A stretch of DNA of 64,000 nucleotides from Methanococcoides sp. (GCA_021108275.1 JAIORD010000033.1:1-64000), one strand, 5' to 3'; shown: positions 4,191-17,262, counted from the stretch's first letter. Numbers and translations are program-made. The notes: a model not told the origin generated them from the letters alone.

Positions 4191-4221
4191 TATATTACAA
4201 TTATTTTGATGAGTGATCATA

Positions 4222-5469
4222 ATGGATTTTGAACTTGGCGACAGAATAAGGATAGAAAAGGACGGGAATACCTATGAAGGCGTTGTGATGCCTTCGAATA
4301 CTGACCATATTGTCGTAAAGATGGTAAGCGGCTATAATGCAGGAGTTGATCCCGAAGGAGCGAGCATAACGCTTCTCGAGAAAGCAGGACCAAAAAATGC
4401 TCCAAAGGCTAAGCCTGACAAGGCAAAAGGACAAAAGAAGTTGCCCAAGGTGACCATACTTTCCACAGGCGGGACCATTGCCAGCAAGGTAGATTACCGT
4501 ACAGGAGCGGTCACTGCACAGTTCTCCGCAGACGATATCGTTGATGCGATACCGGAATTGACAGAGATAGCAGATATCAATGGAAGGGTACTCTACAACA
4601 TTCTGTCCGAAAACATGAAAGCAGAGTACTGGACAGAACTTGCAGGAGCTGTAGCCGAAGAGATAGAGAATGGTGCAAAGGGCATAATCATTGCACATGG
4701 TACTGACACCATGATGTATTCAGCAGCAGCACTATCTTTTATGCTGAAGACCCCAGTACCGGTAGTCTTTGTCGGTTCCCAGAGAAGTGCAGACAGACCA
4801 AGCAGTGATAATGCCATGAACGCCATCTGTGCAGCAAAGGTTGCTGTCAGCGATATTGCAGAGGTCTGTGTTGTCATGCACGACACCACCAACGATGACA
4901 GATGTGCCATCCATTTTGGAACGAAGGTCAGGAAAATGCACACCTCAAGAAGAGATGCATTCCAGTCCATCAACTCAGACCCGATAGGCTACATCGACCA
5001 TTCGACCCATAAGATAGAGACGATACTTCCATTTTCAAAACGCGGTAGCCAAAAACTTGAGCTAAAGAACACCCTTGAACCAAGATGCGCCCTTGTAAAG
5101 TTCGTTCCGGGTGCTGATCCAGATATTCTTTCCTACTATATTGATTCAGGATACAAAGGCCTCGTCATAGAAGGGACCGGACTGGGACATGTTTCAACCG
5201 ACTGGATCCCGAACATCAAGCGTGCCAATGAGAGTGGAATTCCGATAATAATGACATCCCAGTGCCTGAACGGTCGTGTCTGTGACAGAGTATATGATAC
5301 TGGCAGGGATATTCTAAAAGCAGGTGCAATCGAAGGCGATGATATGCTTCCCGAAGTCGCATTGGTAAAACTTATGTGGGCTTTAGGACAGAGCGATGAT
5401 TTCGAAGAAGTTAAAGATATGATGAGATCAAACATTGGTCATGAAATGACCGATAGCACATTGAAGTGA
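4222..5469 (+). CDS. gatD: Glutamyl-tRNA(Gln) amidotransferase subunit D
   Basis: Archaeal GatD, the asparaginase-like subunit that releases ammonia from glutamine for GatE, which amidates Glu-tRNA(Gln). An N-terminal beta-barrel of about 75 residues ([20 protein letters not shown]) is joined by a Lys/Ala-rich linker to an L-asparaginase domain with STGGTIAS (catalytic Thr), [10 protein letters not shown] and [17 protein letters not shown] chose the ATG at 4222 over the in-frame GTG at 4213 because the sequence GAGTGAT sits just before it. gatE is not in the window. A T-rich stretch after the stop (about 5485-5495) may end transcription. Confidence 0.95.
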
Positions 5470-5555: not shown

Positions 5556-6005
5556 TTAGAACCTTACTTCGAGGTCAGCAATCATCTGCTGAGTTGCAAC
5601 ATCGACAATCTTGATAACTCCTGTTGTGCTTGTAGCCTTGAGATCTTGGTTTGAACCACTAGTATTCTCAGCGCTGTCAAGGAAGTAAATAGAGTTTTCT
5701 TTAATGAGGTATAGCGAATCACCAGCTTCGAATCTAGTTTCATCGATAGTGTCCATTGTTGCACCAAGAGTTACGGGAGTGCCATCAAAGGTAATCCTTG
5801 AGCTAGTTGTATTAACTACTACTGCATCCCCGCCCTGATGCTCAATTACGGCACCATTTACGGAATCGATTGTTGCTGCACTTGCCTTAACGCTTGCCTG
5901 TGGTGCAACTTCAGGTGCTCCCATTCCAAACACGAATGCTGCAATGACAGCAGCAAGGATAACAGTGATAGCGACCATCAGGATAACACCGATGACCGGA
6001 GACAT
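5556..6005 (-). CDS. Type IV pilin body lacking its leader (displaced copy)
   Basis: 149 aa beginning directly at the pilin hydrophobic domain (SPVIGVILMVAITVILAAVIA), followed by a variable C-terminal body. Archaeal pilins of the Pilin_N family (formerly DUF1628) normally have a short charged class III leader cut by a prepilin peptidase. Here the leader is missing: the reading frame meets foreign sequence at 6005, and ATG replaces the GTG (Val) codon found in the intact copy at 15.5 kb. No ribosome site or pilin-type leader precedes it, so it is probably silent. Its first 84 bp are identical to bases 15426-15509. Joining it to the leader at 15510-15540 would restore a complete pilin in frame. 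Confidence 0.8.
   Translation of the reverse strand: MSPVIGVILMVAITVILAAVIAAFVFGMGAPEVAPQASVKASAATIDSVNGAVIEHQGGDAVVVNTTSSRITFDGTPVTLGATMDTIDETRFEAGDSLYLIKENSIYFLDSAENTSGSNQDLKATSTTGVIKIVDVATQQMIADLEVRF
5921..6004. repeat. Left 84-bp direct repeat, putative attL
   Basis: This stretch is identical base for base to 15426-15509. It encodes the conserved N-terminal helix of a type IV pilin. Identity stops abruptly at 6005 on the element side, while homology fades gradually on the pilin-body side. An integrase gene starts 92 bp inside the element. The true crossover could be anywhere within the 84 bp. Confidence 0.75.
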
Positions 6006-6095
6006 AACGATTCTTAAGCCTTATTTTGCTTATTAAAGGTAGCTTTGACCATATTTTCCCACATAATCACCTTAAAATAAATTAAAGGTGAAAAC

Positions 6096-6941
6096 ATGGC
6101 AAAGGAAGCAATGAAAAATTTAAGTGCATATGTAACGTATGAAGATTTTTTGAAACTCGAAAAAGCTGCTAAAGAGTATGAGGAAAGTACAGTATTAAAA
6201 AAAGCAAGAGCTGGAGAGTATTCATTATTAATTCGGATACTATTTTTCACAGGTGCACGGATTGCAGAAGTGGTCGGTAATCCAAGAAGAGTTTTTACAC
6301 AATGCTTATTCCCAACTAACAATAAAAGGAAAGGAAACTGTCCAAAATGGAGTAAGGTAAGAGATGATGCCGTTTGTATCGATGCTGAATGTAAATATTT
6401 TGCAACCTATGTTCAGAAAGAGCATCATGGAATACGTGTTAAAGATATAAGCAAAGATAGACTTATAGCGGTCTACGGAAAAAATGTAAAATCAAATGAA
6501 TTGAAACCAAGAACGGTCATAATCGACAGCAAAACATTTGAACTAATCCAAGAGCATATCAAGAAACATGGTTTAAAACCAAATGATAAAATAATAAATC
6601 TCAATGAAAATGGTTCAAAAATATTCATTGAAAAACTCAGGAAACGAGTAGATATGCCATGGATATCGGCTCATAAATTCAGGCATGGTCACGCTATTTA
6701 CTGCATCCAAGGGGGAATGGACATAAGAACCCTTCAACAACAATTAGGGCATGCAGATTTGGGAACTACAGCAGTATATTTACAGTTCGCTGTTGATGAT
6801 AGAAAAAAGGTCTACGATAAAGTTTTCTGTTCAAAACCAAATCATATAAAGGTTCAATGTCCGAGCTGTGGATTTTCTTTTAGATTGAAGAAAACCCGAG
6901 AAATTGAATTTGAAGATAAACTCCGAACAATTTTTGATTAA
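6096..6941 (+). CDS. Tyrosine recombinase/integrase next to attL
   Basis: 281 aa. Phage-integrase catalytic domain: Arg I in TGARIAEV (R55), H-x-x-R in SAHKFRHGHAIY, and LGHADLGTTAVYLQF carrying the second His and the likely nucleophilic Tyr. Two cysteine-containing segments are unusual: a CPKW...CIDAEC insert after the first Arg, and a CPSCGF half zinc ribbon near the C-terminus. The start ATG follows GGTGA. Its position, transcribed inward from the edge of the pilin att repeat, makes it the best candidate for the enzyme that recombines the pilin sequence. Confidence 0.88.
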   Translation: MAKEAMKNLSAYVTYEDFLKLEKAAKEYEESTVLKKARAGEYSLLIRILFFTGARIAEVVGNPRRVFTQCLFPTNNKRKGNCPKWSKVRDDAVCIDAECKYFATYVQKEHHGIRVKDISKDRLIAVYGKNVKSNELKPRTVIIDSKTFELIQEHIKKHGLKPNDKIINLNENGSKIFIEKLRKRVDMPWISAHKFRHGHAIYCIQGGMDIRTLQQQLGHADLGTTAVYLQFAVDDRKKVYDKVFCSKPNHIKVQCPSCGFSFRLKKTREIEFEDKLRTIFD

Positions 6942-7004
6942 ATGAGGGATTATGATGTTGTTCCAGAAAAGATTTTAAAAGATACCCCACGTATCTTTTT
7001 TATA

Positions 7005-8186
7005 TCATTTGTCTTGCGGCAATATCCGAACTTGTCGTTGTCGATTATTTATAGGTCGTTTGTTCGACCTATTAAATCCACTATAGTTGCTATTAGTTCG
7101 ATTTAGTTTATTTACAACTTTATTATATTCAGTTAATGTAAGCTCTTTTATATCGTAACTTTCAGCTTTAGGATTGTTCGGATTACGTGTATAATAGAAT
7201 CCTACACCATTCGAAGTTGGTGAACAGGCTAAATACAATGGTTTATTTTTAGTCATTTCAGCAAATTCAACATATTCAGCATCTTTGTTTTTGACATAAC
7301 TTCCAGCAGAAGTTTTAGACATTAATCTAATCTGACCTACTTTAAAGACCATATCTTTCATGTTTTTATGAACAAGCATACGGACAAAACGATGCGTAAT
7401 TTGGTCAAAATCATCTTCCGATACTTCCTGTCCAACTTTTTCTACAAGAACAGAATGATATTTTACATCAGTAGATTTTGTAGATTTACCAGATGACGAA
7501 GTGACTGTTTTCTCAACTATTGTGAATTTACCTTTTTCTTGTTGCAGGTTATGTTCCAAATCTGATTTTTCATCTTTTAATTTTTCAATCGTGGAATCCT
7601 TTTCTGCAAGTTGTCTTTTAAGTTCAACAACATTGAGTTTGTCTGTTGTTTCATCAGATTTATCATCCGCAGGTCTGTCGTTCTCATCTCCCAAATCACG
7701 ACCAACTGGCTTTTCAACGACTTGTATACTATGACTGCCATCACCTTCGGTATTTACAAAATGATGTTGTATATACTGATTCTCCCATTCTTCATGTTCT
7801 TCTCTTTGTTTACGTCTATAATATAGGGGGTCATTTATCGCTTTTTGAACACCATTATCATTAAGAATATATCTGTATGAACCTCGTTTCCCGATACGGT
7901 TCACGTACTGTAATTCTGGCTTGATGATTCTCCTACCATTTTCTGTTACAGCACCATTCGCATATTTTGACAGATTACTTTTGAAAGTGGTTAATTTTCC
8001 TTTATAATCACACAAATTATAAAGCTGATTTAATTTTAATCCATTCGGGTGATTCAATGAAACTGTCAAAATTTCTTGCTTTGCTTCACAATCCCTATCA
8101 AAATATTTGAGAGATTTTTTACTCTCTTCTTTCTCTTGATTTTCAATTCCCACGCATATTTCATTCCCCATTCTTTCATTAAACAT
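7005..8186 (-). CDS. HTH and coiled-coil protein of unknown function
   Basis: 393 aa. The N-terminal third (about residues 35-120) looks like a winged-helix region, with text such as RIGKRGSYRYILNDNGVQ, the beta-wing pattern of DNA-binding domains. A coiled coil follows at roughly 190-225 (ELKRQLAEKDSTIEKLKDEK). The C-terminal 170 residues are a mixed-charge domain I do not recognise. The start is supported by GGTGA upstream. A plausible role is control or maintenance of the element, but nothing in the sequence proves it. Confidence 0.7.
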   Translation of the reverse strand: MFNERMGNEICVGIENQEKEESKKSLKYFDRDCEAKQEILTVSLNHPNGLKLNQLYNLCDYKGKLTTFKSNLSKYANGAVTENGRRIIKPELQYVNRIGKRGSYRYILNDNGVQKAINDPLYYRRKQREEHEEWENQYIQHHFVNTEGDGSHSIQVVEKPVGRDLGDENDRPADDKSDETTDKLNVVELKRQLAEKDSTIEKLKDEKSDLEHNLQQEKGKFTIVEKTVTSSSGKSTKSTDVKYHSVLVEKVGQEVSEDDFDQITHRFVRMLVHKNMKDMVFKVGQIRLMSKTSAGSYVKNKDAEYVEFAEMTKNKPLYLACSPTSNGVGFYYTRNPNNPKAESYDIKELTLTEYNKVVNKLNRTNSNYSGFNRSNKRPINNRQRQVRILPQDK

Positions 8187-8488
8187 AATTTTTCACCTTC
8201 ATTTTCACCTTTGTTTTTACTCGTAAGTTTGTCCTTGACCATGAGTTGCCGTCTATGTACAGCAACTCCTATGTGTAGGGGTAAATCAATCCAAATTTCG
8301 AAAAAGTAGGACAGATTGCATCTCAATTTCAAAGAACAAAACTACTATCAGTAGTCAAATTATAGACCATAGACTTTTTATTCAGCTTCTTTGACATTTG
8401 GCATCGGTATATCCCTCAACTATTACACCAAATTTCCAATATTTTTATATAATTATTATAATGGAAATAGTAATTTCAATGGTTGAAG
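8187..8488. other. Intergenic stretch between HTH protein and second integrase
   Basis: About 300 bp with no gene I can support. It holds the ribosome site and probable promoter of the minus-strand HTH gene and, at its right end, the 21-bp direct repeat. Confidence 0.6.
8423..8443. repeat. 21-bp direct repeat, copy A
   Basis: TTACACCAAATTTCCAATATT is repeated exactly at 8489-8509, where it forms the last codons and stop of the integrase gene. This copy lies 46 bp beyond that gene's end. Confidence 0.7.
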
Positions 8489-9109
8489 TTACACCAAATT
8501 TCCAATATTATCATTAATTTTTTCCATCTCTCTATTAATGTCTGCCACAGATACATCCAGATACTTCATAGTGGTGGATAGGTTCTTGTGTCGTAGATAT
8601 TTACTCACAAATGGTAGCGGTAGCCCTCTATCCAAAAGATGTTCCGCCCGTGACCTTCTCATGGTATGCGTACCAAATTTTCGATTTAAACCAACATCTG
8701 CACCTATACTATTGATTACCTTATAGACGTGAGAACGATGTACTTGCTTGGACTTTTGCGAATACATTATATAATCAGATGGTTTCAAATCAGAATGTTC
8801 GCAGTATCGCTTTATTCTCTTTAAAATACGAATGTCACATGGTGCTTTTTGAAGTTCAGAAATGTCCTTTCCCTTTCCACCCCACACATCAATGCATTGG
8901 TTCTCGAAATTCAAATCGAGAACTCGCACATTTCGGGCTTCACTAACCCGCAATGCTGGTACGTATAACAAAATGAGCCACATTTCCCATTTTTCTGAAA
9001 TATCAGGCTTATTCAACATTAGTTCAAGTTCTTCTTCACGTAGCCATTGTTTGCTATATCTTGTAAGTGGTTTATACTTTTTAGCAACAGATTTTTTATT
9101 ATATTTCAT
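8489..9109 (-). CDS. Tyrosine recombinase (XerC/D-like), second of the element
   Basis: 206 aa, short for the family (core-binding domain reduced). Catalytic residues visible: Arg in ALRVSEARNV, Lys in WGGKGKD, H-x-x-R in GTHTMRRSRAEH, His in YLRHKNLSTT and Tyr in MKYLDVS. It is a clear homologue of the integrase at 45123-45698 in the other island; they share long blocks such as YVPALRVSEA and RIKRYCEHSDLKPS/RIKRYAEHSDLKPS. Its last seven codons and stop are duplicated as a direct repeat just downstream. Confidence 0.88.
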   Translation of the reverse strand: MKYNKKSVAKKYKPLTRYSKQWLREEELELMLNKPDISEKWEMWLILLYVPALRVSEARNVRVLDLNFENQCIDVWGGKGKDISELQKAPCDIRILKRIKRYCEHSDLKPSDYIMYSQKSKQVHRSHVYKVINSIGADVGLNRKFGTHTMRRSRAEHLLDRGLPLPFVSKYLRHKNLSTTMKYLDVSVADINREMEKINDNIGNLV

Positions 9110-9433
9110 AATATATAAAAAGCAACAGATGTTTATAAAGGTTGCCTTTTCACTGTAAACTGTTTGAGTGCATCATCTGCCGATGGTGAAAATGAAAATT
9201 GACAAAACGATTATTTATTGATAAGAATACATTGTAATCCTTATGTTGCATTGTATAACTGTTATACAAAATAATGAAACATTGTAGATTTAACAATAAT
9301 TATTGTCATAGAAGCGATTTAAGAGTATTTTTGAGTTAATGATATAAATTCATCAGTTTGCAAATCAAATCGCAAATTCGGGCGGATTTTCACGATGTGA
9401 TGGAGAAGATAAAGGATATAGATTTGGTCTGAC
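9110..9433. other. Intergenic stretch, no supported gene
   Basis: About 320 AT-rich bases. A short open stretch before 9431 (ending in a TGA) reads like the end of a helical peptide but lacks a start codon with a ribosome site. I see nothing else. Confidence 0.4.
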
Positions 9434-9643
9434 GTGGAAAAATGCGTCAGATTTCAATCTTTTTTTGTGATTGGTGTAAATTGTGTCAATGATTGTTTTG
9501 ATGAGTGTAAAAGGCTTCTTTTGGGTTTATCAACAGGATATGTAGAAGCCGCCCGAACAATGCAGATACCAACATCGACCATGTACAAATATCGTGATAT
9601 TTGGATGAAACAGGATAAATTGGAGAAGGTTAAAAGCATCTAA
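9434..9643 (+). CDS. Small HTH-like ORF, doubtful
   Basis: 69 aa with a GTG start. The C-terminal part (GYVEAARTMQIPTSTMYKYRD) reads like a helix-turn-helix of the transposase or resolvase type. No ribosome site is convincing, and the first 25 residues are not protein-like. It may be a fragment of a larger gene cut by the neighbouring inverted-repeat element. Confidence 0.3.
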   Translation: MEKCVRFQSFFVIGVNCVNDCFDECKRLLLGLSTGYVEAARTMQIPTSTMYKYRDIWMKQDKLEKVKSI

Positions 9644-9647
9644 AATA

Positions 9648-9779
9648 GGCTCTGTAGAAATCCTCGATATTCGGACACTAATCCAATTTGAAAAGATTAT
9701 GGGATGTGTTGCATGATGTTGGAATATAATTCCAATTCCAGTCTATATATGTTGATTTTGATAGGTTTTCTACAGAGCC
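9648..9779. mobile_element. MITE-like element of 132 bp
   Basis: It is bounded by near-perfect inverted repeats: GGCTCTGTAGAAATCC at the left and GGTTTTCTACAGAGCC at the right (15 of 16 pair). There is no coding capacity. The terminal sequence resembles ends of insertion sequences, so a transposase elsewhere in the genome may mobilise it. No clear target duplication is visible. Confidence 0.65.
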
Positions 9780-9833
9780 AAAAAATGAAAACATTTATAT
9801 AATTTTACAATAAAGTGAGTCTTGGTTTTTCAT

Positions 9834-10019
9834 ATGACAACAAAAAACAATAATAAATCTGTAAAATGTCCAACCTGTAAAGGAAAAGGGGCTGTTAAGT
9901 GTCAGGTATGTTCAGGAAAAGGAAAAATTGAAGACATAATAAACACTTATACATGTAAAGATTGTAAAGGAACTGGTTTACTAAAATGCCCCAACTGCAA
10001 GGGAAAAGGTCTAGTTTAA
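9834..10019 (+). CDS. DnaJ-type cysteine-rich zinc-binding protein
   Basis: 61 aa built of CxxCxGxG units (CPTCKGKG, CQVCSGKG, CKDCKGTG, CPNCKGKG), the pattern of the DnaJ central zinc domain, here without J-domain or C-terminal domain. The ATG at 9834 is preferred to an upstream TTG. An AT-rich TATA-like box (ACATTTATATAATT) lies about 30 bp upstream, so the transcript may be nearly leaderless. A role in protein-protein contacts or redox is possible; nothing more can be said. Confidence 0.75.
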   Translation: MTTKNNNKSVKCPTCKGKGAVKCQVCSGKGKIEDIINTYTCKDCKGTGLLKCPNCKGKGLV

Positions 10020-10031
10020 AAAAGGAATAAT

Positions 10032-10136
10032 ATGTCAGAAGTTGATAAAATAATTGAAGCGTTCCGATTTATAGCTATACTTATGATTTGTGGCTATGTT
10101 TTAGTCAAAATAGCAGAAACATTTGGATATCTCTGA
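10032..10136 (+). CDS. Small single-pass membrane protein
   Basis: 34 aa: a short charged N-terminus (MSEVDKIIEAF), then a hydrophobic helix (FIAILMICGYVLVKIA). It starts 12 bp after the DnaJ-like gene with GGAATA before the ATG, and the next gene begins 12 bp later, so the three are probably co-transcribed. Function unknown. Confidence 0.45.
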   Translation: MSEVDKIIEAFRFIAILMICGYVLVKIAETFGYL

Positions 10137-10148
10137 ACATAGATTATT

Positions 10149-10745
10149 ATGGATTTAAACAACCTCTTATATCTTTTTGTATTTGTATTACTTATCCTTG
10201 TAGCTTCACGTTTTATGAAAGGTGAAGAAAGACAAATACTACCTCATATAAACACCAATTCACCTAAAGCAACAGCTAATTCTGACACTTTTAAACATCC
10301 CAAAAAAGTATCAAAAATCGATATTGCTTTCGATAACATAATTGATTTTATTCAAAATGAAGTTTCATTTCGTTATGGTAAAAATAAAAAAGAAAAAGAT
10401 TACCAGCAAGACTTAGAAGGGATGTTGCTTGTTCTGAAAGAAAGATATGGGTATATGTCTAATTATGAATCAGTTAATGGTAAACATAGAGTTGATTTCA
10501 TAGTCAATGAAAATATTGGAATTGAAATGAAAGTTAATCGTGGTGGAACACAAGTCCAAAAGGAATTATATAACCAAATAACAGATTACTCAAATTTTTG
10601 TCCTAAAATGATTGGATTGGTTGTGAATATTACAGACAAAAATCCTGAAATCTTACGAAACGAAATCCTGAATAAACTGAAATATCAACATGCAATCCAT
10701 GAAAATGATTATGAAGTAATTGTTTTAGATGTAAACAAGAGCTAA
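10149..10745 (+). CDS. Membrane-anchored PD-(D/E)XK-like nuclease
   Basis: 198 aa. An N-terminal transmembrane helix (residues 3-22) is followed by a linker and a soluble domain. That domain shows HRVDFIVNENIGIEMKVNRGG, which fits the D-(x)n-ExK core of restriction-like nucleases, preceded by a helix with an acidic residue (KDYQQDLEGML). The fold assignment rests on motif reading only. A membrane-tethered nuclease in a mobile element would fit defence or DNA uptake control, but this is inference. Confidence 0.6.
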   Translation: MDLNNLLYLFVFVLLILVASRFMKGEERQILPHINTNSPKATANSDTFKHPKKVSKIDIAFDNIIDFIQNEVSFRYGKNKKEKDYQQDLEGMLLVLKERYGYMSNYESVNGKHRVDFIVNENIGIEMKVNRGGTQVQKELYNQITDYSNFCPKMIGLVVNITDKNPEILRNEILNKLKYQHAIHENDYEVIVLDVNKS

Positions 10746-10756
10746 TTGGTTTTTGT

Positions 10757-10905
10757 TCAATTTTGATACCCTACAATTTTCGCCCAGCCTTCCAATCTCT
10801 CCCTTACATGAACATTCAATGTAAAGGGCTTATCATCCTTTGCATTCTGCTTCATGTAATGCAATGTACCCTTCGAAAATCCCATTTTCTTCAATTCGGC
10901 ATCAG
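10757..10905 (-). pseudogene. Relic of casposase (Cas1) C-terminal HTH domain
   Basis: Reading the minus strand gives KKMGFSKGTLHYMKQNA, then KPFTLNVHVRERLEGWAK and a stop. This matches the C-terminal HTH tail of the casposase at 52500-53720 (KKMGFSKGTLHYMKQNA...FSLNTHVKERVEMWEGC). Only about 49 codons remain and a stop lies just upstream in frame. It marks a former casposon inside the pilin-integrated element. A similar relic lies at 57098-57225. Confidence 0.8.
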
Positions 10906-10985
10906 TTCCAAACTAATAAAACTATTTTTATTAATTTTACAATAATTACAATAAGTTTATATCTATGAACATCATGTTTTAAATT

Positions 10986-11411
10986 ATGACTTCAATATAT
11001 AATTCAAAACAAAATACAAGAGGAGTTACAACGCCTAAAAGATTGTTCGGAAATCTTGAAGGTGCATTCCCTTTGAATGGTACAATTTATGATAAATTAT
11101 CTGGAAAATCTGGTGTATATGTAATTACTGTGGTAGGATGGGAATGGAGAATTCCATATCCTTGTAGTAAGAGTAATATCATATATGTTGGTCAATCAGA
11201 AGATATTGGAAAAAGGCTCAGGCAACACAAATCTGCTGGAATGAATCATGAATTGAAGGTATATGCAGATGGTTGTTCTTTAAATGTCTATTATAGAAGT
11301 GTCTTGAATGTTTCGGAACTGAAAATGTATGAAAGCCAAATGATTCTCCAATTTGAGAATAAATATGGTGGAATACCTATGTGTAATAATCAAACACCGA
11401 ATGTTGATTGA
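10986..11411 (+). CDS. GIY-YIG nuclease domain protein
   Basis: 141 aa. The GIY-YIG fold is visible as GVYVIT (GIY part), NIIYVGQSEDIGKRLRQH (YIG part with the Arg), and YESQMILQFENKYGG with the catalytic Glu region. There are about 45 N-terminal residues before the domain. No DNA-binding module is seen, so this could be a small homing- or defence-type nuclease. The start ATG is close to an AT-rich promoter, probably a leaderless transcript. Confidence 0.8.
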   Translation: MTSIYNSKQNTRGVTTPKRLFGNLEGAFPLNGTIYDKLSGKSGVYVITVVGWEWRIPYPCSKSNIIYVGQSEDIGKRLRQHKSAGMNHELKVYADGCSLNVYYRSVLNVSELKMYESQMILQFENKYGGIPMCNNQTPNVD

Positions 11412-11599
11412 TGGGATGTGAGGAAGAAAGATTATGGGGAATGTCTCATGATAAATTCCCATATTTCCAAAAGAAAGGTTTCTTTGGATTTCTACTAAAA
11501 CGATAGATACATCAAGATTGATAATAAATGGTTTAAATCTGCATTATGAGATACATTGAAAAAGCTATGCTATATCTCATAATAGACGATTCATTGAGA

Positions 11600-14176
11600 T
11601 TATTTTACAATTCTTACAATTGGTTCTGGATTCGCTTTCGTTTCTGCTTTTGCTTTTGCTTCGTCTTTTAATATGATTTCATATATAGAATCAATATTTA
11701 CAATCCCAACTGTCAGTTCTTTGAAATCATCGACAAACTCACCATTTACCAATACTTTTGAATTTTTGCCAAAAGGCATCTCTATTAATTTATCTGATGA
11801 TTTGTATTGCAGGTTAATCTTTGTATTTTTTGGGTACGATTCAAAGGATTTGTTTTTGCCCTTCAAAATAAACCCAATGTCTTTCAATATTTTTTCATAA
11901 ACGAGTTTTGCAACATTCGCTTTGCTTTCATTTATAAGCATCCATAAACGATAGGATGAACCAATTTTTTCGATTACGTATGGCAAATTGATACTATCAA
12001 AGGATAATTTTAAAGCACTTATGTTATATTCAGAAGGTGTTTCGAACATAACGCAATTCACTTTATTTTCAGGCATCAAGAATTTGAAACTGAGATTGTG
12101 GTCACCATCTATATGTTGTGCAAGTAATTTGTCCGTCAAAATCATATCTTTTTTAGACGATTTTTTTCTTACGCTAACATCATTATCGCCAATAATTAAA
12201 TCAAGCAAAGAACTCTTCGAATTTTTTTCAAATTCGTTATTCTCTATTCTCCCATAGTAATAGGTATTATATGGGTGTTTGAATGGTAATGAATTTAAAT
12301 AATTTTTACACAGTATACTTCTTATAAGAGTTTGTTTCCAATCTACTTCTCGTCTGTGCTTTGGTCTTGAAATTTCTTCACCATTTATGCGAACGTTTAT
12401 ATATTTGCTTTGACCCTGCCCATCGGGGTTTATAATTTCAACTCCCCTATCAATTCCCCATGTCACAATGGCTAATATGTCTCTTTCAACACAGCCAAGA
12501 GCAAAGACAATTGATTTTTCTTTTCCGTTTGGGTCTTTTACACGGCTTAATGCTTGAAAAACTTCAATATGCATCATTTCTTCTCGTGCTACCTGAGCTT
12601 TTTCGGCAGAATCACGCATTGGGTCACATGCATGGGCTGGAAGGTGTCCTAATCCTATGAGTATGCAAACTCTTTTTTCGGAATCGACACCCATAACGTC
12701 AGGTGCTCGGTAATAGGTCACTTGTGGAGTGTATTTGGGTTTTTTACCATCTTCAGAATAATTTTCCCAATAATCTTTCCAATAAATATATTCACTAATG
12801 TTTCTGCAAATGATGAGACAATTATTAGAACCATGTAAGTTCATAATTTGTTTGCAACGAGTTTGTATTTCAATTCTACAATTATAAGTAGAATTTCTAC
12901 CAAATGCACTATATGATTTTGTATCGCACAATATTGTCAATTTGTCATTGGTATTTAATGGGTCTCCAAAATTATATTTATGAATATCCGTTCCAGATTT
13001 GAACAATCCACTATAATTAAAATATGTAAATGTTGCTGATGTCACTATTATTTTACTTTTTTTATCAAATTGCTTCGTTTTAAGGAACTCAGATATTACA
13101 GACAAATACTCTTCATTGACAGTACAAATATCTGTCAGTGTGTCGTATGTGTTCTTATTTTTTATTTTTTGGGAATGGAGTGTAATTTTATCTGTTTTCA
13201 CAATATTGATTATGTTAATTATGAAAGAGATATCTTCAGTTGATATTTTTAAACTTTTATGACAATCAATCAAACTAATGAGTTCTTGCAAAATCTTACT
13301 TGATTTTTTCCCAATTTCAGTTTCGCTTATTTCATATTTGTCAGTTTTACGATTATAATATGGTTTCGTATTTCTGTCTATAAAAGCAATGTTTTTCTTT
13401 GGATTAGGAATGGTGCAAGATTGATTTTTACTATATGATGAATACTCTTTATCATCTACGTGTGTATTCAACAATTTCTTTTGTTCCAATACGTCTTTGT
13501 TTTTGATTATTTGAATATAATTGAAAATGAGTTTGCGGAGATTTTTATATTCACCTTTGCTTTTATTTAATTTTCTCATTATATATTGAGCATAGCCGAA
13601 ATCGTGGTTATTGGTCATGTCTAATGACATGACTTCATCAAATGCTAAATTATGGGCTTCATCAAAAATGACAATATCAGATGCAAACAGTTTATCTAAA
13701 ATTTCTGATGCATTTGATTCTGGATACAGTTTAGCCGTTTTCATAGTTGCTACTAATTTATGATAGGTAATAGCAATGCCATCATAATCTTCATCTCTAA
13801 ATATTTTTGTTACAGAACATTTATCATAATGCTTGCACTCATCACCGCAACCATTTGGCAATGGTAAATATGGAAGACAACTCAAATATTCATTCTCTTC
13901 AATTTTTTCTTTATTAAGTATACACTCAAAATTGCTTGGAATATGAATAATATTTGGATTTTCTTTTTGAGATAATCTTCTTACATTTCCCAATATTGTA
14001 TCTTTGATTATTTTGTTTGTAGGTACAACAATTAAAAATTTTAGATTCCGTAATAATGATGCGAGGCATAAAGATGTGGTTGCACCTGCTCGTGTTGTTT
14101 TGAATAGTTGAATTTCGTTATGGTTACTATCAATTACACCTAAAGCTCTTTGCAACCTTATATCTGTGGCACTCAT
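11600..14176 (-). CDS. DEAH-box helicase fused to a primase-like domain
   Basis: About 858 aa. The N-terminal half is superfamily 2-like: a nucleotide-binding loop KTTRAGATTS, the segment LKFLIVVPTNKII, a cysteine cluster (CLPYLPLPNGCGDECKHYDKC) placed like the Fe-S/Zn insert of XPD-type helicases, and the DEAH box IVIFDEAHNLAFDE. The C-terminal ~180 residues resemble the archaeo-eukaryotic primase of TOTE-type systems: a stretch like the inactive counterpart of the DxD strand (VMFETPS), SYRLWMLINE, a YPKNTKINLQ segment and LIEMPFGKNSKVLVNGEFVDD. The acidic DxD pair seems lost, so polymerase activity is doubtful. ATG at 14176 follows GGTGAGT. Confidence 0.65.
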   Translation of the reverse strand: MSATDIRLQRALGVIDSNHNEIQLFKTTRAGATTSLCLASLLRNLKFLIVVPTNKIIKDTILGNVRRLSQKENPNIIHIPSNFECILNKEKIEENEYLSCLPYLPLPNGCGDECKHYDKCSVTKIFRDEDYDGIAITYHKLVATMKTAKLYPESNASEILDKLFASDIVIFDEAHNLAFDEVMSLDMTNNHDFGYAQYIMRKLNKSKGEYKNLRKLIFNYIQIIKNKDVLEQKKLLNTHVDDKEYSSYSKNQSCTIPNPKKNIAFIDRNTKPYYNRKTDKYEISETEIGKKSSKILQELISLIDCHKSLKISTEDISFIINIINIVKTDKITLHSQKIKNKNTYDTLTDICTVNEEYLSVISEFLKTKQFDKKSKIIVTSATFTYFNYSGLFKSGTDIHKYNFGDPLNTNDKLTILCDTKSYSAFGRNSTYNCRIEIQTRCKQIMNLHGSNNCLIICRNISEYIYWKDYWENYSEDGKKPKYTPQVTYYRAPDVMGVDSEKRVCILIGLGHLPAHACDPMRDSAEKAQVAREEMMHIEVFQALSRVKDPNGKEKSIVFALGCVERDILAIVTWGIDRGVEIINPDGQGQSKYINVRINGEEISRPKHRREVDWKQTLIRSILCKNYLNSLPFKHPYNTYYYGRIENNEFEKNSKSSLLDLIIGDNDVSVRKKSSKKDMILTDKLLAQHIDGDHNLSFKFLMPENKVNCVMFETPSEYNISALKLSFDSINLPYVIEKIGSSYRLWMLINESKANVAKLVYEKILKDIGFILKGKNKSFESYPKNTKINLQYKSSDKLIEMPFGKNSKVLVNGEFVDDFKELTVGIVNIDSIYEIILKDEAKAKAETKANPEPIVRIVK

Positions 14177-14304
14177 TTGCACCACTCACCGTTTACATCG
14201 CTTACAATATATTTATATATAATTATGTAGATTTTATTATTGAACATGTTTTCTCCCAGAGGTGTGGATTTTGCAAAGGGGTTCACACACCTGCTATTTT
14301 ATCC

Positions 14305-14469
14305 TTAAATTTTCTCCTCGAAAAAATCGTTAAGTATGTAATTTACAAAAATTGACCTTGGAATAGTCTTTCTGTAATCATCGAGTTTTTCAATTACTGC
14401 TCTATCCAGTGAAAATGCAACTACTGGCTTGCCACGCTGTTCATTTTTAGTTTCGCTATTTTGTTTCAT
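14305..14469 (-). CDS. Small ribbon-helix-helix-type regulator
   Basis: 54 aa. A basic N-terminal strand (GKPVVAFSLDRAVIEKLDDYRKTI) is followed by PRSIFVNYILNDFFEE, the strand-helix-helix layout of small archaeal MetJ/Arc-like regulators. GGAGACC lies ahead of the ATG. It sits about 130 bp upstream of the helicase gene on the same strand and might repress it or the element's integrases. Confidence 0.6.
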   Translation of the reverse strand: MKQNSETKNEQRGKPVVAFSLDRAVIEKLDDYRKTIPRSIFVNYILNDFFEEKI

Positions 14470-15016
14470 TTTAATGGTCTCCTAATTTATTATTACGTTG
14501 TAATATAATTTTATAAATATACCTCCGTGCATATAAACATTCCGATTGAACTGCAACGCAGCATAGCGAAATTGAATACGGCTCAAACAAACACCATTTG
14601 CTAAAAAAGTGAACACTGTTTGGTTGTTCAATTTTAATTTAAGGACAATAAATAACATTCTGAAAAAAATAAAGAACTTTGCATCGGAAATTGTCGATGA
14701 CGGCTTGAATACGTCTTATTTAATCCTGCATTATAAATACTTTCATTTCAATAAAACTTTTTTATTTAATTTTTGAACATAGCATAATGCCCCACCAATA
14801 TTTGAAATCTATATCAGATTCCAAATACACAAAACAATTTATTTATTAGAAAAGCAGATATTCTTATTAGCACAGTTCAACTAAGATTGTTGTGCGGAAA
14901 ATCGAGGTGAATTACGGGGTTAATAATCAAAGTATCTTACAACATAGCGTCTGTTGATGCTATGGAATACGCAAAATAAGGTCAAAAGCAACACCTGAAG
15001 GTCGCTGGAGTTGAAT
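14470..15016. other. Non-coding AT-rich stretch in the integrated element
   Basis: About 550 bp without a supportable gene. A weak inverted repeat lies near 14627-14650 (GAACACTGTTTGGTTGTTC). The right end leads into the pilin terminator. No tRNA or obvious structured RNA was seen. Confidence 0.5.
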
Positions 15017-15031
15017 TTAAAAAAAAAGAAT

Positions 15032-15047
15032 GATGCAGTCATGCACC
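15032..15047 (-). terminator. Terminator hairpin of right pilin gene
   Basis: GATGCAGTCATGCACC forms an imperfect stem-loop 16 bp past the pilin stop; a run of T follows on the minus strand. It is homologous to the hairpin at 5524-5539, showing that the two pilin copies share their 3' flank as well. Confidence 0.6.
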
Positions 15048-15063
15048 ATGTTCTTTAAAGGTT

Positions 15064-15540
15064 TTAGAATCTGATATCCATATCAGCAATCATCTGCTGA
15101 GTTGAAACATCGATGACTGTTACTTCGACAATGTCACCAGTGCCTCCAATTGCTGCAGTGAAATTCGTTACATCAGATGGTGAGCTTGAAACGAAATAAT
15201 CTGTACCTTTAAGTCCAAGATAAAGACGTTCTCCAGCACTAAACTCATTATCAACAATTGCATAGCTCACTCCAGTTCCACCAACAAGGAATTTGGTGTT
15301 TGATGATGAAAGTACAATCCCGTCTCCACCTTGGTGCTCAAGCATAACAATAGCAAATTCACCAGCACTAGTTGCTTCAGATGCACTTGCCCTTACACTT
15401 GCCTGTGGTGCAACATCAGGTGGTGCCATTCCAAACACGAATGCTGCAATGACAGCAGCAAGGATAACAGTGATAGCGACCATCAGGATAACACCGATGA
15501 CCGGAGACACTGCATCTTCATTTCTATTCATTTTAAACAT
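15064..15540 (-). CDS. Type IV pilin with class III signal peptide (intact)
   Basis: 158 aa from the ATG at 15540, which follows GGAGGAATAATAAA; an in-frame upstream ATG at 15573 lacks a ribosome site. Leader MFKMNRNEDA, then VSPVIGVILMVAITVILAA: a class III signal cut by the prepilin peptidase just before the hydrophobic helix. The body is about 110 residues and beta-rich, differing from the left copy. The promoter and leader are outside the 84-bp repeat and the body is inside the element, so this gene is a hybrid of host 5' end and element-borne body. It would be exported and assembled into a surface filament. Confidence 0.88.
   Translation of the reverse strand: MFKMNRNEDAVSPVIGVILMVAITVILAAVIAAFVFGMAPPDVAPQASVRASASEATSAGEFAIVMLEHQGGDGIVLSSSNTKFLVGGTGVSYAIVDNEFSAGERLYLGLKGTDYFVSSSPSDVTNFTAAIGGTGDIVEVTVIDVSTQQMIADMDIRF
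15426..15509. repeat. Right 84-bp direct repeat, putative attR
   Basis: Identical to 5921-6004. To its right lie only the pilin leader codons and ribosome site; to its left lies the element-borne pilin body. Confidence 0.75.
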
Positions 15541-15569: not shown

Positions 15570-15776
15570 TCAATTAGAATCAATTTGTTGCTTTTTCTGC
15601 ACTACTTTTTCAAGCTTGCGAGTCCACATCTCATCATTCATTTCAGTGTACTCACACTCAAGATAATGCTGAACCGCTATGCTCAAAGCTTCCTTTGTAG
15701 ACGGTTCATTTGACTTTTTCTTGAGTTCTTCAAGCTGGTCCTCAGTAAGTACAGTTTGAGCATGTACTATTTTCAT
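15570..15776 (-). CDS. Small conserved methanogen protein (DUF5371-like)
   Basis: 68 aa, MKIVHAQTVLTEDQLEELKKKS...STKEALSIAVQHYLE, a pattern that looks like a ribbon-helix-helix fold with a helical C-terminus. I recall similar proteins in Methanosarcinaceae under DUF5371. It lies 29 bp upstream of the pilin start on the same strand, so it may be co-transcribed with the pilin and could act as its regulator. Confidence 0.7.
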   Translation of the reverse strand: MKIVHAQTVLTEDQLEELKKKSNEPSTKEALSIAVQHYLECEYTEMNDEMWTRKLEKVVQKKQQIDSN

Positions 15777-15998: not shown

Positions 15999-17156
15999 TT
16001 AGGTTATGATCTTATCAAGCTGGCCGGATTCTATTGCACGGCGTACCTCAAAGGCAACACGTCTTCCTGTGCTCATAGGTTTGCGCCATAAGGTATTGGC
16101 GTATGGGTGACCAACGGACATGTGGACGTTCGTTCCGCCACCAACCCTTGGAGCAACATCATATATGTGGAAGTTCAGATCTTTATCAATGCAGGTCTGG
16201 AGGCAGAAAGGACCAATTACACCGGGGTCATAGAACTCCTTGGATGCCTTGATATACAGTTCTGAAAGTTTGAAAACCTCCTCAAGGAGAGATTCACGAA
16301 GTGTTGCAGAATTGTGACCACATACTGTGTACTCAGGAGTTAGCTGGTGCTCAGCGAGATTCATCTGCTGTGGTGCAGGAAGTCTTACATGACCGTCCAG
16401 ACTTGTCTCGAATCTCCAGTCAATACCAAGGATCTCGGTCTTGTTCATTTCTTCCTCGATAGGGGAATAGAACATGTCAAAATTGAAGACCGGGCCAATA
16501 ATATAGCGCTCGATCCTTGCTTCTGCAAGGGCTTCCCTTGTAATAACACCCTGTTTGATAAGGGACTCGGATTTCTCTACATATTCACTGTAAGTTCCGG
16601 CAGTGAAGAAGCCACGTTCAAGTTTCTTTACTGCATGAGGGAGCTTTACCATTACAAGCTCATCAATATCTTCAGGATCGTTTATCCTTTCAGGGAATGG
16701 AAGACCAGCCTTCTCAAGAAGCCAGTAATAGTCCTGGTCCATACCGCGCTCCTCACTTCTGAGCATGTTCCTGCTTCCGACCATTGGCACACGGAAATCG
16801 TTCTCGACCTCATCGATGTCGCAGTAGGAAGTAAAGGACCTGTTGGGTATGAAAAGAACGTTGTCATCCACAAGCTTCTGCTGGTTCTCTGGAAGCATTA
16901 GCTCATTGAACTTATCATATACAACATAATCATCAACGATACCGCGCACAACATTGCCATTAGCGTCCCTTTTTGACTTGAAGTACTCGGTATATGTCTT
17001 TTCACGACCAGCCTGGCATATTGCAAAGGTCTCGAAGTTTTCCTCGATAGCACCGTCAAATACATCCAATCCTGAGTGAGAAGCAACTGTACCGATCTTT
17101 ATGTCATCAGTATAATAGCTCTCCGCAATCTCAATAATCTCTTTCCTGTCGATCAT
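15999..17156 (-). CDS. purP: FAICAR synthetase (PurP)
   Basis: 385 aa from the ATG at 17156 (MIDRKEIIEIAESYY). PurP is the archaeal ATP-grasp enzyme that formylates AICAR with formate and ATP in purine synthesis, replacing part of bacterial PurH. Recognisable blocks: IGTVASHSGLDVFDGA near the N-terminus, FIPNRSF, VPMVGSRNMLRSEER, and the C-terminal YDVAPRVGGGTNVHM. Length is typical. The longer open frame to 17195 is not preceded by a ribosome site. purD lies apart at 40.3 kb. Confidence 0.94.
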   Translation of the reverse strand: MIDRKEIIEIAESYYTDDIKIGTVASHSGLDVFDGAIEENFETFAICQAGREKTYTEYFKSKRDANGNVVRGIVDDYVVYDKFNELMLPENQQKLVDDNVLFIPNRSFTSYCDIDEVENDFRVPMVGSRNMLRSEERGMDQDYYWLLEKAGLPFPERINDPEDIDELVMVKLPHAVKKLERGFFTAGTYSEYVEKSESLIKQGVITREALAEARIERYIIGPVFNFDMFYSPIEEEMNKTEILGIDWRFETSLDGHVRLPAPQQMNLAEHQLTPEYTVCGHNSATLRESLLEEVFKLSELYIKASKEFYDPGVIGPFCLQTCIDKDLNFHIYDVAPRVGGGTNVHMSVGHPYANTLWRKPMSTGRRVAFEVRRAIESGQLDKIIT

Positions 17157-17262
17157 CCTTTTTGTTCTCCGGGTTTTTGTGATACAATGGAACATGCGTT
17201 ATAAAAGACTTATTCTTACTACAACAAGAGAAAGGGCATAATTCTAAAAGATGACGAAAAGG

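Follow-up and report, generated by a model that had tools for sequence, protein, structure and literature searches.

The 64,000-nucleotide stretch of Methanococcoides sp. analyzed here (GCA_021108275.1, JAIORD010000033.1:1-64000), hereafter the window, carries an integrative element of ~9.5 kb within a type IV pilin gene, spanning 5921-15425 or, equivalently, 6005-15509. The element was very probably inserted by tyrosine-recombinase strand exchange inside the codons where the mature pilin begins, which joined the host leader to a pilin body brought by the element and left the host body headless. Integration with replacement of the pilin body is well supported. A sequence-only reading of the same DNA had proposed an element that uses conserved pilin N-terminal codons as its attachment (att) site, and the same arrangement was found at the same codons, with orthologous integrases, in eight genomes.

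The pilin gene and its attachment repeats

The two 84-bp copies of the pilin N-terminal codons (Table 1) are 100% identical and lie on the same strand at the coordinates first reported for them. They are direct repeats, not inverted repeats bounding an invertible segment of the Piv or shufflon type. The match stops sharply at the leader side; toward the bodies it fades, with 95% identity over 128 nt before unrelated sequence begins, and the two copies resemble each other again across the C-terminal codons and terminators (83% over 95 nt). The repeat amounts to more than protein conservation: within the window genome the N-terminal 78 bp are 100% identical, but identity drops to 92-97% when other members of the genus are compared with it and averages ~84% from genome to genome over the full comparison. 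Perfect N-terminal repeats measure 84 bp in genomes G000 and G014 and 117 bp in G015. Crossover probably occurs in the first 16-50 bp of the repeat, CCGGTCATCGG, the codons for S-P-V-I-G. It is placed at or next to this sequence because in the two Methanolobus elements (G083 and G089) unbroken identity is limited to a short block at the 5′ edge.

Both open reading frames (ORFs) belong to the archaeal type IV pilins, as judged by the Pfam family Pilin_N and by related solved chains (8fj5, 8gi2, and 9myg), and the earlier description of two different pilin-like bodies with homologous terminators stands. ORF reading likewise bore out that the leader (MFKMNRNEDAV) and GGAGG ribosome site accompany the right copy only, the left ORF beginning at the repeat edge. 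With neither signal present in the headless copy, the leader-bearing gene is presumably the only one expressed. With the element-borne 3′ part, the target reading frame stays intact: 158 residues are encoded after integration, and joining the flanks in silico yields an intact in-frame pilin of 159 residues, as expected if excision returned the original body. The integrase, whose ATG (6096) lies 91 bp past the repeat edge of the headless pilin, retains the R..H-x-x-R..H..Y set (R55/H193/R196/H219/Y228), invariant across the family alignment, and would catalyze the strand exchange. Structure prediction from single sequences gave the integrase a predicted local distance difference test score (pLDDT) of 35 and was trusted for the pilin in the N-terminal helix only.

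Table 1. Features of the integrated pilin locus and its flanks, in window coordinates
Feature	Position	Strand	Basis or remark
gatD-like host gene, body side of empty site	4213..5469	(+)	94-97% identical in G003, G006, G009
Host pilin with the original body, headless and leaderless, presumably silent	5556..6005	(-)	Pilin_N E=2.3e-20; following flank colinear with empty sites, 74-98% in 50-bp windows
att copy, integrase side	5921..6004	(-)	84-bp perfect repeat
Putative P arm, CTACCTTTAATAAGCAAAATAAGGCTTA, between integrase and core	6015..6042	(-)	Alignment; conserved in nine elements
Tyrosine recombinase (integrase), 281 aa	6096..6941	(+)	Phage_integrase E=2.7e-14; family alignment; nine loci
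Cargo ORF, 393 aa	7005..8186	(-)	No family match in protein family search
Second, short tyrosine recombinase, 206 aa	8489..9109	(-)	Relatives in G077 (76%) and G083 (55%) elements
Membrane-anchored PD-(D/E)XK-like protein	10149..10745	(+)	Relatives at G014 and G027 pilin loci (49-51%)
GIY-YIG domain protein	10986..11411	(+)	Domain match
Helicase with C-terminal AEP-TOTE primase-like region	11600..14185	(-)	AEP-TOTE E=9e-6, below Pfam cut-off; ResIII E=4e-4
Putative P′ arm, TTATTTTGCGTATTCCATAGC....GCTATG, inverted copy of P-arm motif	14936..14979	(-)	Beyond element-borne pilin body and terminator
Hybrid pilin, presumably expressed, 158 aa: host leader and N-terminus fused to element-borne body	15064..15540	(-)	ORF with ribosome site and leader; Pilin_N E=1.4e-22; 8fj5 archaeal pilin E=7e-12
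att copy, leader side	15426..15509	(-)	84-bp perfect repeat
DUF5371 gene, host	15570..15776	(-)	Beside this pilin locus in nearly all relatives
purP-like host gene, leader side of empty site	15999..17195	(-)	98-99% identical in G003, G006, G009

Recurrence and the putative attP

The search for the integrase covered 112 family genomes, was widened to 238 genomes of the class, and included a scan of bacterial and archaeal contigs. Its family occurs in 9 of the 238 class genomes, within Methanosarcinaceae and the family that holds Methanoperedens: G000 and G007 (one genus), G014, G015, G077, G083, G089, and, in another family, G135 and G136. In eight of the nine elements a leaderless pilin starts at the S-P-V-I-G codons, 86-97 bp from the integrase start. 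The search for other pilin genes with this element yielded seven further genomes, all Methanosarcinales, whose integrases lie beside the same pilin codons and are 62-87% identical. The far end of the element is in hand for seven pilin elements, the G136 contig being too short to reach it; every one of the seven has a leader-bearing pilin there, and in six, those of Methanosarcinaceae, DUF5371 is its neighbor. The att copies lie about 9.5, 29.6, 31.2, 30.6, 14.7, 3.9, and 37 kb apart in these seven elements.

A joining of two loci at the repeat during assembly, conceivable for a window genome in 60 contigs, is exceedingly improbable: independent assemblies show the same arrangement, and in three (G014, G015, and G077) the contig bearing the locus is the size of a chromosome. 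As a separate observation, one contig (L121, G100:C94 end) breaks exactly at the pilin S-P-V-I-G codons with the P′ arm after the pilin, as expected if assembly broke at a repeated att site.

Between elements, the replacement bodies differ far more than the N-termini. Without the N-terminal part, element-borne and host-side bodies are 36, 42, 46, 49, 50, and 52% identical in G000, G014, G015, G077, G083, and G089, respectively, against 96-100% for the N-terminal 28 residues. The replaced body comprises ~110 residues. A replacement near-identical to the host part (98%) was found only in G007, whose element targets an aminotransferase gene.

Conserved GCAAAATAAGG / CCTTATTTTGC motifs form putative arm-type sites in inverted orientation around the core. 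On the P′ side, past the element-borne body, comes an inverted copy of the central part of the P arm and then a small inverted repeat (CCTTATTTTGCGTATACCAT....ATGTT). The P′ motif gave 22 matches in the 112 genomes versus 2 for a reversed control. This arm site (14936-14979) had not been part of the sequence-only reading. Since it lies past the pilin body, the whole body would sit between the core and the P′ arm, within the element's own attachment site (attP). The ~37 kb Methanoperedens-type element of G135 has two pilin genes between core and P′ arm (L158:1-1700, L105), and the host side holds a matching pair, diverged versions of both.

The attP would accordingly read, from the integrase outward, P arm, core, complete promoterless pilin body with terminator, and inverted P′ arm. 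Integration would place the element body behind the promoter, ribosome site, and leader of the host, leaving the host body headless and silent beside the integrase; excision would return the host pilin in frame. Further elements entering the same core would build a stack of bodies, the newest expressed and the rest silent, and if the rest of an element were lost, its body would stay for good. Excision in live cells, a working switch, and an effect on the pilus surface may follow from this arrangement.

History of the locus and alternative readings

Besides direct repeats at both ends (attL and attR), the locus has the empty sites in relatives that had been looked for: G003, G006, and G009 share the order purP-DUF5371-pilin-gatD with near-identical flanks (85-98%) around unrelated pilin bodies, their DUF5371 being 94-100% identical to that of the window. 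Their DNA is mostly 80-98% identical to the window on both sides near the pilin and 30-68% through the ~300-bp body. The small DUF5371 protein is encoded directly upstream of the pilin in almost all relatives examined, which suggests a functional link with the pilin.

Several loci look like products of repeated insertion. Stacks occur in G014, G015, and G089: in the first two, a P′ arm also lies past the headless body, and G089 has three bodies in a row, the region past the second aligning with G082. There, an expressed-type pilin and P′ arm are followed by an element remnant and then the host flank. An arm near a leader-bearing pilin, with this integrase absent from the sequence read, was found in G078, G082, G087, G008, and G010. 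We infer from these patterns serial integrations and swaps that became fixed.

Tandem pilins do occur at this locus (G001, G005, G008, and G010), so that two ancient paralogues with an unrelated island between them, their repeat explained by protein conservation and gene conversion, might be considered. That origin is very unlikely. The closest relatives have a single pilin, and the position of the integrase and arm sites is the same each time they recur. Tandem genes retain their own leaders, whereas in eight genomes the headless copy is cut off from its leader at almost the same codon. No relative showed both pilin copies in the window's arrangement without the integrase, a finding that would have told against an element; the integrase-free tandem pilins each have a leader.

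The tandem loci also provide an internal control. In G001, G008, and G010 the second pilins are 84-89% identical, and the first, which are the targets, 45-62%. This speaks against plain gene-restoring integration of the kind known for e14 in icd, in which the 3′ part would serve only to make insertion harmless and the differing body would be an accident of element origin, not a selected surface switch. The G007 element is the best case for it: a 354-bp C-terminal part of the aminotransferase gene is duplicated at 98% identity, the headless part adjoins the integrase, in-frame restoration occurs at the other end, and the P′ arm lies just past the stop codon, so the strategy may serve chiefly to preserve target-gene function. 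In another genus, too, a P′ arm lies 9 nt past an aminotransferase gene (G078:C103:497, L126), and P′ arms come after PPK2 genes (G083:C51:130903, L128; G013:C1:2442717, L120), a third kind of target; the 40 kb read at each of the two PPK2 loci contained no relative of the window integrase. With the e14 precedent (PMC11148124), these cases make harmless restoration a serious contender, if on the whole a doubtful one. Pilin is the target in eight of nine integrase-bearing elements, the element bodies are always very different (36-52%), and two elements carry surface-modifying cargo: sugar and glycosyltransferase genes in G077 and a surface-layer (S-layer) protein in G015. Because of the restored aminotransferase and the arms after aminotransferase and PPK2 genes, the general strategy is gene-restoring integration as for e14 in icd; the pilin case differs in that the restored protein body is another one.

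Some observations weigh against this mechanism. No excised circle or restored locus is present in the assembly, which holds only the two att pilin copies and one distant pilin. Searches of phage, plasmid, and IMG/VR collections turned up no circular form; the integrase had no plasmid match, and its matches in phages and IMG/VR were distant integrases only (bacterial ones in the phages). Pilin bodies at the locus also differ between element-free genomes, so there may be sources of variation besides the element. Nine IMG/VR matches to the P′ arm had no pilin, integrase, or other element protein beside them and were treated as chance.

Cargo, possible role, and known systems

Cargo is nearly unrelated from element to element, and no gene but the integrase is shared by all of them. 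The elements appear to be replicons because they carry helicase or primase-helicase genes of differing kinds: AEP-like in G000, D5-like in G014 and G083, and DUF927 in G015. The window helicase is likely the element's replication protein. The short second tyrosine recombinase, adjoined by a 35-nt direct repeat (8423-8457 and 8489-8523, 83%), may act in dimer resolution or at another site. Other cargo includes type I restriction systems (G014 and G015) and a PifA-like nucleoside triphosphatase (G007). More broadly, the att sites look like a port for defense and surface genes (loci L034, L072, L073, L091-L092, and L035). A provirus was also considered: no virion genes were found among the proteins tested, neither as a structural match among ten proteins compared with PHROGs nor among those ORFs, a part of the total, scanned with Pfam.

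Tentatively, and short of calling it probable, we propose that attP-borne bodies give Methanosarcinales a common, mobile stock of surface variants. One integrase/att module with unrelated cargo would replace the expressed pilus surface, keep older bodies as a silent archive retrievable by excision, and protect element and host against viruses or elements that enter via the pilus. The hypervariable body and the cargo of surface and defense genes would suit a hypothetical role in escaping viruses or in adhesion. The system would tie horizontal transfer to cell-surface change in methanogens and methane-oxidizing Methanoperedens, and offers a possible explanation for the hypervariable body of this pilin between nearly identical flanks. 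Recurrence in eight genomes makes mobile-DNA-driven change of the archaeal cell surface directly testable.

The literature searched contained no report of an archaeal mobile element whose attachment site holds a replacement surface-protein body. A survey of Thaumarchaeota, as far as its excerpted text goes, finds integrated elements of archaea at coding-gene ends, with 3′-distal targets and generally short att sites, and that text describes no swap of most of a surface protein such as occurs here (PMC6563490). In streptococci, integrases of related prophages repeatedly hit the conserved pilin-like gene comYC across species, disrupting it and abolishing transformation (PMC4774983). Here, too, a conserved pilin-type gene is repeatedly targeted, but it stays intact with a new body.

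Phage 21 enters icd of Escherichia coli by the same kind of insertion as e14. The e14 element resembles ours in that a tyrosine recombinase inserts it inside a coding gene, an in-frame replacement 3′ part is carried, and the host part remains as a headless duplicate; its 165-bp replacement differs at 12 nt and two conservative residues (PMC11148124). In the pilin elements, by contrast, the exchange covers an entire body of ~110 residues, or two pilin genes; the replacement is only 36-52% identical, with the P′ arm beyond.

Site-specific pilin variation is well known in bacteria. In Moraxella, the Piv recombinase (tfpQ/tfpI) connects a single leader and N-terminus with different pilin bodies, and the junction falls among the N-terminal codons, as also happens here; Piv is not a tyrosine recombinase and acts by inverting a resident segment, whereas here the variation arrives with a mobile element. 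The shufflon of IncI plasmids works by inversion among resident plasmid cassettes, varies a minor tip adhesin, and involves no element integration, unlike the pilin elements, which integrate. Pilin inversion is among the works cited in PMC11208160. The PilV shufflon with its recombinase Rci combines a tyrosine recombinase, a constant N-terminus, and variable C-terminal parts of a pilus protein (PMC5430464). Those three traits recur in the archaeal elements, which represent gene-restoring tyrosine-recombinase integration that is, in effect, like a pilin-variation system.

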